Notes under the pieces: model-generated
What the model was told of the DNA's origin: nothing
Databases searched by the model: none
What the model saw: only the letters and a program-made list of their open reading frames with translations
Part shown: positions 5,253 to 31,804 of the stretch, piece by piece
How positions within the stretch are numbered: position 1 is the stretch's first letter
Layout of the letters: each line of letters begins with the position of its first letter
Program-made: the position numbers and the translations under genes
Assembly: GCA_022821265.1 (NCBI GenBank)
Contig: JAJEDW010000325.1
Span: 1 to 32,786, forward strand
DNA length: 32,786 nucleotides
Source: Acidobacteriota bacterium
Lineage (GTDB): Bacteria > Acidobacteriota > Terriglobia > 20CM-2-55-15
Direction of reading: 5' to 3'

Positions 5253-5603
5253 ATGACCCGCCGCCCCGGAGCCCCGACGCGCGGCGGAACGACACGACGC
5301 GCGCGCATCCACGCCGTCGTCGCCCAGATCCCGCGCGGACGCGTCGCCAGCTATGGGCAGATCGCCGGCCTGGCCGGACTGCCCGGCCGGGCCCGGCAGG
5401 TCGGCTACGCGCTGGCCGCGCTGCCCGAGGCGACCCCCGTCCCGTGGCACCGCGTGGTCAACGCCCGGGGGGAGATCAGCACGCGCGCGCGGACCGGTTC
5501 CGAGGGCGCGCAACGGCGCCTCCTCGAGGGCGAGGGCGTCGCCTTCGACTCGACGGGACGCATTCCGATGGACCGTTTCCGGTGGAGGTCCGGCCTGCTA
5601 TAG
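5253..5603 (+). CDS. Alkyltransferase-like protein (MGMT/ATL family, Trp in place of the reactive Cys)
   Basis: IPRGRVASYGQIAGLAGLPGRARQVGYALAALPEATPVPWHRVVNARGEIS: MGMT DNA-binding fold with PWHRV instead of PCHRV. The start could also be TTG at 5232. Confidence 0.9.
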   Translation: MTRRPGAPTRGGTTRRARIHAVVAQIPRGRVASYGQIAGLAGLPGRARQVGYALAALPEATPVPWHRVVNARGEISTRARTGSEGAQRRLLEGEGVAFDSTGRIPMDRFRWRSGLL

Positions 5604-5604
5604 T
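5596..5604 (+). promoter_or_regulatory. Extended -10 element TGCTATAGT, 8 nt before the Rrf2 gene start
   Basis: TGC+TATAGT (5596-5604), then GACCTCGG, then ATG at 5613; overlaps the stop codon TAG (5601-5603) of the ATL gene. Confidence 0.6.
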
Positions 5605-5612
5605 GACCTCGG

Positions 5613-6038
5613 ATGAAGATTTCCGCCAAGGACGAGTACGCGTGCCTGGCCGTGCTGGAGCTGGCGCTTCACTACGATCCCGACGTGCCGATCCGGGTTC
5701 AGGACATCGCCGAACGCCAGCGCATACCGGTCAAGTTCCTGTTCCAGATCATGCAGGCGCTGAAGCGCGTGGATATCGTTCGCAGCAAGCGCGGCACCGA
5801 CGGCGGCTACGTCCTGGCCCGCCCGCCCGCCGACATCACGGTCGGCGACGTGCTGGAGAGCATCAGCGGACCCTTCGTTCAACTTTCGTCCAACCGCAAC
5901 GGCGGCAACGCGCACCAGCTCGAGCCGATCTGGAACGACGTCGGCTCCGCGATCGGCGCCGTGCTCCACGACGTCAGCTTCGCGTCCCTCGTCCAGCAGG
6001 CGCGCGCGCGGGAGCGCCAGGTCATGTATCACATATAG
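5613..6038 (+). CDS. Rrf2 family transcriptional regulator (CymR-like, lacking the IscR-type cysteine triad)
   Basis: MKISAKDEYACLAVLELALHYDPDVPIRVQDIAERQRIPVKFLFQIMQALKRVDIVRSKRGTDGGYVLARPPADITVGDVLESISGP; only one Cys in the translated protein. Confidence 0.92.
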   Translation: MKISAKDEYACLAVLELALHYDPDVPIRVQDIAERQRIPVKFLFQIMQALKRVDIVRSKRGTDGGYVLARPPADITVGDVLESISGPFVQLSSNRNGGNAHQLEPIWNDVGSAIGAVLHDVSFASLVQQARARERQVMYHI

Positions 6039-10460: not shown

Positions 10461-11559
10461 GCGCGGGAGCGGCGCGGTCCGCGCCCGCCGCCACCGGATG
10501 GTAGAGCGTGTCGCGCTCGATGGGTGTCCGGCCGGCGGCGCGGATCAGGCTCTCGATCTGGGCGCGCGTCATGCCCAGTCCCGCCTCCCCGCCGGCCCCC
10601 TGGATGATCCGCTCTTCGACGATCGTCCCGTCCAGGTCGTCGGCGCCGAAACCCAGGGCCACCTGCGCCAGCTCCGGCGTCAGCGTGACCCAGTACGCCT
10701 TGATGTGCTGGACGTTGTCGAGTATCAGCCTGGCCACCGCGATCGTCTTCAGATCGTCGGTGCCCGTCGTCGGGGGCAGGTCGCTGTAGAACGTGTTCTC
10801 CGGATGGAACGCCAACGGGATCAGGCAGTTGAAGCCGCCGGTCGCGTCCTGGAGCGTCCTCAGCCGGATCAGGTGATCGACGCGCTCGTCGATGGTCTCG
10901 ATGTGGCCGTAGAGCATCGTGGCGTTCGAACGGACCCCGGCGGCGTGGACCGCCCGCGCGACCTCGAGCCAGCGCGCGCCCGAAATCTTGTGGCCGGCGA
11001 TCAGCGGCCGCGCGCGTTCCGAGAAGATCTCGGCGCCGCCGCCGGGACAGCTTCCCAGGCCGGCGTCCTTCAGCCTCTCGATCACCCATTCCACGGGCCG
11101 CTTCGAGATCCGGCTCAGGAAATCGATCTCCACCATCGTGAACGCCTTCAGGTGAACCGTCGGGAAGCGTTCCCTCAGGCCTTCGAGCAGGTCGGTGTAG
11201 TAGGCGAAGGGCAGCGCGGGATTGAGCCCGCCGACGATGTGGAACTCGGTGACGCCCGAGTGGTACTTCTGCGCGGCGAACTGGAAGACCTGCTCCAGCG
11301 ACATCGTGTAGCCGCCCGGCTCGCCCGGTTTCCGGGCGTAAGCGCCCTGGCAGAGCTGGCAGTCGATGGCGCAGACGTTGGTATAGTTGATGTGGCGGTT
11401 GACGTTGAAGTAGACGCGGTCCCCGTTCAGCCGCGTGCGAACGGTGTCGGCCAGTCGACCGAGTCCGTGGATGTCGTCGGTCTCGTACAGGGCCACGCCG
11501 TCGGCGAGCGTGAGCCGCTCGCCTCGCTGGACCTTGTCGACGATCGCGGAGTCGATCAT
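10429..11559 (-). CDS. mqnE: Aminofutalosine synthase MqnE (radical SAM, futalosine menaquinone pathway)
   Basis: CX3CX2C radical SAM cluster TNVCAIDCQLCQ; HIVGGLNPALPFAYYTDLL, LKAFTMVEI, GSCPGGGAEIFSERAR, NATMLYGHIET, FGADDLDGTIVEERI motifs. Confidence 0.92.
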   Translation of the reverse strand: MIDSAIVDKVQRGERLTLADGVALYETDDIHGLGRLADTVRTRLNGDRVYFNVNRHINYTNVCAIDCQLCQGAYARKPGEPGGYTMSLEQVFQFAAQKYHSGVTEFHIVGGLNPALPFAYYTDLLEGLRERFPTVHLKAFTMVEIDFLSRISKRPVEWVIERLKDAGLGSCPGGGAEIFSERARPLIAGHKISGARWLEVARAVHAAGVRSNATMLYGHIETIDERVDHLIRLRTLQDATGGFNCLIPLAFHPENTFYSDLPPTTGTDDLKTIAVARLILDNVQHIKAYWVTLTPELAQVALGFGADDLDGTIVEERIIQGAGGEAGLGMTRAQIESLIRAAGRTPIERDTLYHPVAAGADRAAPAPTGETGLRPA

Positions 11560-29140: not shown

Positions 29141-29192
29141 TGCCATCACGATGGCACCGATGATGACATTTTTGTGGCATCATGTCTGCCAT
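29141..29192. promoter_or_regulatory. Candidate VapB/AbrB operator: TGCCATcacgATGGCA plus repeated TGGCAT/TGCCAT half-sites
   Basis: Perfect 6-bp palindrome arms at 29141-29146/29151-29156; related half-sites at 29175-29180 and 29187-29192 overlapping the antitoxin start. Confidence 0.5.
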
Positions 29193-29436
29193 GAAGACCA
29201 AGATGGATTCCGCCGGCCGCATCGTTGTCCCGAAACCGTTAAGAGAGTCGTTGGGTCTGGAACCGGGTCAGAAGCTTGAGATTCGCGCCAGTGATCGTGG
29301 TTTCGAGCTCGAGATCGTTCCCACCGGGATGCAATTGAAGAAACGGGGGAAGGGCGTCGTCGCAGTCCCCGACATCCCGTTGCCGCCACTGCGGGCGGAC
29401 ACGGTCCGCGGCGTGTTGGATCAAATCCGAAAATGA
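29182..29436 (+). CDS. AbrB/SpoVT-type antitoxin (VapB-like)
   Basis: MKTKMDSAGRIVVPKPLRESLGLEPGQKLEIRASDRGFELEIVP; may start at ATG 29191. Confidence 0.9.
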   Translation: MSAMKTKMDSAGRIVVPKPLRESLGLEPGQKLEIRASDRGFELEIVPTGMQLKKRGKGVVAVPDIPLPPLRADTVRGVLDQIRK

Positions 29437-29837
29437 GGACCGCCGATACCAGCGCCGTGATCGCGGCTTTCGCGTCCTGGCACGAGAACCACGACGCCGC
29501 GCGCCGCGCCCTGGACAGCGGATCGAGATTGATCGCGCATTGCGCACTGGAATCGTATTCGGTGCTGACACGGTTGCCCGCGCCGCACCGCGCCGCGGGA
29601 ACCGTCGTGAGCCGGTTTCTGAAGGCCCGTTTCCCGCAACCGTTCATACGACTCAGCGACAGAGAGTACAGAGAATTCGTATTCGCGCTGCCGGATCATG
29701 CGGTTCGGGGCGGCGCCGCGTACGACGCGCTGGTCGCGGCGACGGCCGCGAATGCCGGACTCGAGCTGGTCACGTGTGACCGACGCGCGTTGCCGGTGTA
29801 CGAGCGATACCGCGTCAAGACGCACTACCTCGCTTAG
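29433..29837 (+). CDS. PIN-domain toxin (VapC-like)
   Basis: MRTADTSAVIAAF, AHCALESYSVLTRL, AAYDALVAATAANAGLELVTCDRRAL; ATGA overlap with the antitoxin. Confidence 0.92.
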   Translation: MRTADTSAVIAAFASWHENHDAARRALDSGSRLIAHCALESYSVLTRLPAPHRAAGTVVSRFLKARFPQPFIRLSDREYREFVFALPDHAVRGGAAYDALVAATAANAGLELVTCDRRALPVYERYRVKTHYLA

Positions 29838-29902: not shown

Positions 29903-30640
29903 CTAATTTGCCGGATCGACCGGGGTGATCGACCGCTCGCCGAGCTTTTCGATCAGGCGCTGCCGCGCTCTCTCGAGGTAAGCGGCGTCCTTCGACTCCA
30001 GCGTGAGCCTCACCTTGTAGTCCGGGTTCTCGAACGCCGGATACGAGCCCAGCGCCAGGTCGGGAAACACCTCCAGCAGCTCGTGGAGCGTGTCGGCCAC
30101 CTCGCCTTCCTCGGCCTGGACGAAGACGTCCGAGGCGTGAAACGGCGGCTGACGGAACATCTCGCGGATCCGCTCGAACTTGGCCGCCAGGATCTCGGGA
30201 ACCCCCGGGAAGATGTAGACGTTGCCGACCGCCACGACGGGAAACAGCGTCGGCCGGGAGCGGACCAGAACGGCGCCTTCGGGCACGTCGGCCATGCGCA
30301 GCATGGCGCCCCCCAGCGCGCCCTGATAGTATTGCTCCAGCGCCGCAACGAGCTCGGGATCGCGGCGTACGCCCTGACCGAACGCCGCCGCGATCCCTGG
30401 AACGGTGACGTCGTCGTGCGTCGGTCCGACGCCGCCCGAGGTGAACACGAAGTCGAATTCGGAGGAGAACCGGCGCACTTCATCGCGAATCACGGCCAAT
30501 TCGTCCGGAATCACCGACAGTCTCCGTACGTCGACGCCCAGCTCTCGAAGCTGGCGGAAAAGATAGGACCCGTTCCGGTCCGGCGTGCGGCCCGACAGGA
30601 TCTCGTTGCCGATCACGATGATTCCCGCGGTCTTCGACAC
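29903..30640 (-). CDS. Molybdopterin-binding (CinA N-terminal/MoCF) domain protein
   Basis: SKTAGIIVIGNEILSGRTPDRNGSYLFRQLRELGVDVRRLSVIPDE...FTSGGVGPTHDDVTVPGIAAAFG; no C-terminal CinA deamidase domain. GTG start at 30640. Confidence 0.92.
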   Translation of the reverse strand: MSKTAGIIVIGNEILSGRTPDRNGSYLFRQLRELGVDVRRLSVIPDELAVIRDEVRRFSSEFDFVFTSGGVGPTHDDVTVPGIAAAFGQGVRRDPELVAALEQYYQGALGGAMLRMADVPEGAVLVRSRPTLFPVVAVGNVYIFPGVPEILAAKFERIREMFRQPPFHASDVFVQAEEGEVADTLHELLEVFPDLALGSYPAFENPDYKVRLTLESKDAAYLERARQRLIEKLGERSITPVDPAN

Positions 30641-31804
30641 ATGAAGCACTATAGCAAACGGTCCTCGGACGCCCCGGCGGCGGAGGCCCGACTGATCGTG
30701 GCCTCCAGCGACGGCGACGCCAACATGCTCTGGGCGACCCGGATGTTCGTCCCGGATCCCTTCATTTTCATCAAGAAGGGCCGGCTGAAATACGCCGTGA
30801 TGAGCGATCTCGAGGTGGACCGCGCGCGCGTCCAGGCGTCCGTGGACCGGGTCCTCGCCCTGTCCGACTACATCGCGCGCGCGCGCGCGTCCGGCGTGGG
30901 GACCCCCTCGATGGCCGACGCCCTGACCTGCGTGCTTCGCGACCTGGGGATCGGCCGGGTCCGCGTGCCGGCCAACTTCCCCCTGGCGTTGGCCGACCAC
31001 CTGCGCGCGGCCCGGGTCACGGTCCGGCCGCAGCCGGATCCGTTCTGGCCGGACCGGGAGGTCAAGACCCCCGAAGAGGTCGGCCACATCCACGACTCCC
31101 TGAAGATCGCCGAGGAAGGCATGGGCGCCGGCATCGCGGCCCTGAAGCGCACGACGATCGGCCGGAACGGCGTTCTGCGCCTGGACGGCGCGCCTCTGAC
31201 CTCGGAGCGCCTCAAGGCCGTCATCAACAGCCGGATCATGGAGCGCGGCGCCGTCCCGAGCCACACGATCGTCGCATCGGGGCCCCAGTGCGTCGACCCG
31301 CACAACGAGGGCAGCGGTCCGATCCACGCCCACACGTCCATCATCATGGACATTTTCCCGCGGTCCGAGACCACCGGATACTTCGGCGACATGACGCGGA
31401 CGGTCGTTCGCGGCCGGGCCTCGGACGCGCTGAAGCGCGCCTACCGCGCGGTCGAGGAAGCGCAGGCGATCGGGTTCCGCGACATCCGGACCCGGGCCAG
31501 CGCGTACTCCATTCATTGGAAGATCCTGGAACACTTCCGCGCGCGCGGTTTCGAGACCGGGCGGAAGGACGGGCGGATGCAGGGCTTCTTCCACGGGACC
31601 GGGCACGGACTCGGGCTCGACATTCACGAGCTGCCGACGTTCGGCCTGCGCTCGACCGGCCGGTTCCGCCGCAACCACGTCGTGACCGTCGAGCCCGGCC
31701 TGTACTACGCCGGCATGGGGGGCGTCCGGCTCGAGGACGTCGTGGTGGTCGGCGACACGGGATGCCGCAACCTGGTGCGGTTCCCCAAGTTCCTCGAAAT
31801 CTGA
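30641..31804 (+). CDS. M24 family Xaa-Pro aminopeptidase-like protein
   Basis: ASSDGDANMLWATRMFVPDPFIFI; PEEVGHIHDSLKIAEEGM; DIFPRSETTGYFGDMTRTVVRG; GFFHGTGHGLGLDIHELPTFG; VVTVEPGLYYAGMGGVRLEDVVVV. Start could be ATG 30641 or GTG 30698. Confidence 0.92.
   Translation: MKHYSKRSSDAPAAEARLIVASSDGDANMLWATRMFVPDPFIFIKKGRLKYAVMSDLEVDRARVQASVDRVLALSDYIARARASGVGTPSMADALTCVLRDLGIGRVRVPANFPLALADHLRAARVTVRPQPDPFWPDREVKTPEEVGHIHDSLKIAEEGMGAGIAALKRTTIGRNGVLRLDGAPLTSERLKAVINSRIMERGAVPSHTIVASGPQCVDPHNEGSGPIHAHTSIIMDIFPRSETTGYFGDMTRTVVRGRASDALKRAYRAVEEAQAIGFRDIRTRASAYSIHWKILEHFRARGFETGRKDGRMQGFFHGTGHGLGLDIHELPTFGLRSTGRFRRNHVVTVEPGLYYAGMGGVRLEDVVVVGDTGCRNLVRFPKFLEI
30648..30656 (-). promoter_or_regulatory. 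Extended -10 TGCTATAGT 7 nt before the CinA-like GTG start
   Basis: Minus strand reads TTTGCTATAGTGCTTCATGTGTCG; same 9-mer as upstream of the Rrf2 gene. Confidence 0.6.

Follow-up and report, generated by a model that had tools for sequence, protein, structure and literature searches.

A conserved extended -10 element, probably the one-directional promoter of a CinA-like gene, at a zero-gap junction with a divergent M24 peptidase gene in Acidobacteria

When two divergent genes meet start to start and a TATA-containing palindrome lies just inside one of them, the question arises whether a single symmetric -10 element serves both genes or whether the palindrome belongs to the promoter of only one. 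Such a junction is found in the window, that is, the whole stretch of 32,786 nucleotides of Acidobacteriota DNA analyzed here (contig JAJEDW010000325.1), whose nearest named relative is the Acidobacteria MAG JAJEEE010000088.1, with 98% protein identity. The minus-strand gene (29903 to 30640) starts with GTG at 30640 and encodes a CinA-like protein of 245 amino acids with Pfam matches to MoCF_biosynth and FLAD1_M (1.9e-29 and 9.5e-22), while the plus-strand gene (30641 to 31804) starts with ATG at 30641 and encodes an M24 metallopeptidase of 387 amino acids (Pfam PF00557, Peptidase_M24, 4.6e-37). The junction reads ...GTCTTCGACAC up to the boundary and ATGAAGCACTATAGCAAAC... after it, so that the GTG at 30640 to 30638 touches the ATG with 0 bp between the two starts. 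This arrangement had been reported in a preliminary description of the DNA and is borne out by the sequence of the window and by the Pfam-supported reading frames, as is the CTATAG palindrome just inside the M24 gene, at 30649 to 30654. All family members share the aligned position of the CinA-like start codon. On the plus strand at 29182 to 29837, convergent with the CinA-like gene, lie a short AbrB-type-antitoxin-like open reading frame (ORF) and, after it, a gene for a PIN-domain protein (PF01850, 1.2e-10); the two probably form a toxin-antitoxin pair.

On the minus strand, the palindrome is contained in a longer and asymmetric element. TGCTATAGT, at 30648 to 30656, consists of TG and one further base followed by the hexamer TATAGT (30653 to 30648), and it is by a wide margin the best minus-strand -10 candidate. 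It is separated by 7 nt from the CinA-like GTG, giving TATAGT-N7-GTG with the hexamer beginning 13 bp before the start codon. The GTG is preceded by GCTTCAT and no Shine-Dalgarno sequence, nor is one apparent in the relatives, and a scan of both strands found no -35/-10 pair at the junction. Within the window, CTATAG is only mildly rare (2 occurrences versus 0.35 expected), whereas TGNTATANT is seen 3 times versus 0.03 expected. The same 9-mer as at the CinA-like site recurs on the plus strand at 5596 to 5615, where TGCTATAGT is followed by N8 and an ATG at 5613. The N terminus encoded there looks like that of an Rrf2-type regulator (MKISAKDEYACLAVLELALHYD...), and this ORF is probably a second leaderless gene with an identical 9-base promoter. 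TGGTATAGT, at 11379 to 11387 of the plus strand, lies inside a minus-strand ORF and is followed by no convincing gene start.

According to homolog searches, nine other genomes of the family have the head-to-head CinA-like/M24 pair, with a start-to-start gap of 14 to 26 nt in the eight relatives outside the window's genus. We compared ten distinct junctions aligned on the CinA strand, among them that of G003/L041, in which the CinA-like gene has no M24 neighbor. The motif TGnTATA(T/G)T is present on the CinA strand in all ten, including an invariant TG separated by one base from the -10 hexamer, and it precedes the CinA start by 6, 6, 7, 9, 9, 9, 9, 10, 15, and 18 nt, i.e., by 6 to 10 nt in eight genomes and by 15 and 18 nt in the other two. 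Conservation is limited to the TG, the TATA, and the last T; the n position is free and the flanks are variable. The neighboring CinA codons are saturated, with 0/40 invariant fourfold sites and 2/78 invariant synonymous third positions, and seven invariant bases seem very unlikely to have arisen by chance, even for genomes that share ancestry and an alignment that is anchored on the motif. We regard the element as being of long standing in this Acidobacteria family and as maintained by strong purifying selection. The minus-strand TGCTATAGT, proposed earlier as a -10 at leaderless spacing from the GTG, is supported by its 7-nt spacer and by the invariance of the motif TGnTATA(T/G)T in the ten junctions. 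The symmetry of the -10 as a functional feature fared otherwise: just 2 of the 10 distinct junctions contain the palindrome CTATAG, versus all 10 for TGnTATAnT, one of them lacking the M24 gene, and the identical TGCTATAGT stands before the Rrf2-like gene at 5596. In G003/L041, TGCTATATT is still found, 10 nt before the CinA start. Since the element is kept without an M24 neighbor and only its asymmetric form is conserved, it belongs to the CinA-like gene, and CTATAG is best read as a fortuitous palindrome, a by-product of TGCTATAGT.

We therefore favor, with a probability of roughly 0.88, the explanation that 30648 to 30656 of the minus strand is a one-directional sigma-70-type extended -10 element driving a leaderless or almost leaderless CinA-like mRNA. 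TGCTATAGT would be recognized by a sigma-70-type factor, and the distance from hexamer to transcription start site (TSS) predicts transcription from A 30642 or G 30640 (about 30640 to 30642, minus strand), leaving a leader of 0 to 2 nt and presumably requiring leaderless GUG initiation at 30640. In the two relatives with spacers of 15 and 18 nt, the mRNA would have a short leader rather than none. With a TSS at A 30642, the mRNA would begin AUGUG, its AUG lying two bases ahead of the GTG and out of frame with it; a start at G 30640 avoids this. That AUG would open an ORF of 9 codons (MCRRPRESS, 30642 to 30613, minus strand) overlapping the GTG start. The M24 gene, in turn, is packed against the CinA -10 and would need a promoter of its own, located at its ATG or farther upstream; this promoter would sit inside the CinA gene, antisense to the 5' end of that gene.

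The M24 side of the junction depends on where translation of the peptidase begins. In the other genera of the family, nothing separates the M24 ATG from the TATA core (TATAACATG, TATAGCATG; eight relatives), and most of these relatives have no other canonical in-frame start ahead of the conserved core, a stop codon being found a short way upstream. The window's genus has AAA at the homologous codon, and ATG 30641, five codons upstream, serves as the start instead; because the start is taken there, the -10 now falls within the M24 reading frame. ATG 30641 is the sole ATG/GTG/TTG upstream of residues A16 and L18 within 75 codons and, judged by sequence, the plausible M24 start. It had been proposed that a plus-strand -10 shifts the M24 start to the internal GTG at 30698 to 30700. 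We rejected this GTG, which is not conserved in the other genera and would delete residues 16 and 18; A16 and L18, both encoded upstream of it, are nearly invariant among 18 M24 homologs, several of which are not beside CinA, and GTG 30698 is thus unlikely to be the main start. The plus-strand hexamer TATAGC (30650 to 30655), described as the weaker one, is indeed present and lacks the -7T. As an M24 -10 it was discarded, since its TSS would lie near 30662, after ATG 30641, and after the ATG in the relatives too. More generally, the plus-strand TSSs predicted from TATA-overlapping hexamers lie 3 to 8 nt past the A of the ATG in the relatives and 18 to 23 nt past it in the window, and in L011 and L012 poorer hexamers just upstream (CAAAAT and CAAACT) would place the TSS 1 nt past. 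The proposed shift thus did not survive.

If M24 starts at ATG 30641, its transcript begins at or upstream of this position and abuts or overlaps the CinA transcript head to head. For the corresponding promoter, no sigma-70-type site passes the scan at the junction. Ahead of the M24 start, the plus-strand hexamer that scores best as a -10, though still weakly, is GATGAT (30617 to 30622), within CinA codons constrained by the IIV motif. Synonymous conservation is not raised in the first 40 CinA codons, where diversity (0.52 to 0.61) resembles that of the rest of the gene. A plus-strand promoter within these 40 codons was thus not retained, as synonymous diversity shows no depression and as it is the IIV codons that dictate the top-scoring hexamers (GATGAT/GATAAT).

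The alternative that survives best is an addition compatible with the one-directional explanation, namely, that the core fires both ways, the plus transcript being a weak noncoding by-product and M24 being transcribed from another promoter. Bacterial promoters commonly give rise to such noncoding divergent transcripts (PMC10268837, PMC12825309), and the reciprocity of -11A and -7T holds here; however, the junction provides no positive evidence of such a transcript and the plus-strand matches are poor, so that we consider this addition possible but on balance unlikely. More doubtful is a conserved reciprocal coupling of the two genes, in which the location of the CinA -10 on the M24 start would make the presence of polymerase there and M24 transcription mutually exclusive, through promoter occlusion together with head-to-head antisense overlap with the leaderless mRNA.

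That one pseudo-symmetric -10 drives both genes, with M24 translated from GTG 30698, appears very improbable to us. The minus-strand -11A and -7T do coincide with the plus-strand -7T and -11A (30652 and 30648), which is the geometry of bidirectional promoters as outlined in PMC10268837, and a GGAGG lies 11 nt upstream of GTG 30698. This reciprocity, however, is automatic for any such hexamer, and in a -10 matrix of approximate E. coli frequencies, suitable for ranking only, the plus hexamers on the core score at most 5.7, versus 8.8 to 11.3 for the minus strand, and have no TG extension. Furthermore, the plus TSS falls past what is in most relatives the sole canonical M24 start before the conserved core, the near-invariance of residues 16 and 18 speaks against translation from GTG 30698, and the element persists without an M24 neighbor.

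A transcription factor operator in place of a core promoter, as might be suggested by strong conservation within a short intergenic gap, is scarcely credible given that conservation is confined to the bases read by sigma-70, that the relation to the CinA start is nearly fixed, and that similar sites lie upstream of unrelated genes. Finally, although CTATAG by itself is not very rare, the conservation of the minus-strand motif in ten genomes refutes a chance palindrome in GC-rich DNA as its origin, and the expectation of 0.03 occurrences of TGNTATANT in the window speaks against it as well.

Signs of leaderless starts were also looked for elsewhere in the genome, the family, and beyond. In about 1.47 Mb of the sister species, 34 of 174 TATANT sites have a coding ORF beginning within 50 nt, versus 15 of 209 sites of the reversed motif used as a control, and the TAYNNT spacers peak at 6 to 8 nt (13, 8, and 12, versus about 5 per position). 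In 0.4 Mb of one family relative, the TATANT spacers peak at 8 to 10 nt. We take this to be a modest signal of leaderless genes in the sampled sequence. It comes from a motif-first test, which superseded a gene-start motif scan of 346 predicted genes that was too noisy because the leftmost starts were overextended. In the genome of the window itself, six of the seven distinct TGNTATANT-N(3-9)-RTG sites read out open long ORFs, with spacers of 6 to 9 nt, and the six N termini resemble, by inspection only, SRAP, TrmFO, LpxD, Rrf2, a CinA-like protein, and a secreted protein. TGnTATAnT was not found before CinA-like starts outside the family. Nevertheless, 5 of 16 more distant CinA-like homologs have TANNNT at 5 to 10 nt upstream of the start codon, versus 7 of 128 control windows, and leaderless initiation may recur in CinA-like genes across phyla. 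In L043, L045, L048, L052, and L054, TANNNT is located 6 to 8 nt upstream of distant CinA-like starts.

Taken as a whole, the locus would be a clean case of a leaderless extended -10 promoter defined by phylogenetic footprinting, in Acidobacteria that are known from draft genomes, and it illustrates that a shift of a start codon can place the promoter of one gene inside the reading frame of another. It also calls for caution, as a TATA palindrome is not equivalent to a two-way promoter: here, the relatives and the loss of the neighboring gene show selection on the motif of one strand only. In bidirectional promoters (Warman et al. 2021, as cited in PMC10268837 and PMC12825309), the -10 is symmetric with reciprocal -11A and -7T, TSSs lie 18 bp apart, and the class is defined by divergent TSS pairs 7 to 25 bp apart. 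Our junction shares with them a divergent gene pair around one TATA core and the -11A/-7T reciprocity; it differs in that the symmetry is unconserved, the TG and the consensus hexamer are one-sided, and the plus TSS misses the M24 start codon. Symmetry kept by selection, a test we added outside the published definition, is not seen (CTATAG in 2/10 junctions, versus 10/10 for the asymmetric motif), and the plus TSSs predicted from TATA-overlapping hexamers all fall beyond the A of the M24 ATG. Since both conserved symmetry and a usable plus TSS are lacking, we do not class the element as a promoter of both genes. With extended -10 (TGn) promoters that have no -35, in contrast, it shares TGCTATAGT and the lack of a -35/-10 pair in the scan, and there is no notable difference. 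The other close parallel is the class of TA-led leaderless genes, with TANNNT about 12 bp upstream of the start, described by Zheng et al. 2011 (PMC3160421), who reported that leaderless genes make up about 13% of genes in Acidobacteria (13.3% on average). The CinA-like gene has the sequence features of this class, i.e., TANNNT at about 12 bp, a spacer of roughly 6 to 8 nt, and no Shine-Dalgarno sequence. Shared are TATAGT 13 bp before the GTG, the conserved spacing class, and a phylum with about 13% leaderless genes, while the CinA element differs in its extended TGn, in its position within or directly against the start of the opposite gene, and in the short leaders expected in two relatives of the window. 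The CinA-like promoter is real, well conserved, and ordinary in kind, a new example of features already known, set in an unusually tight layout.
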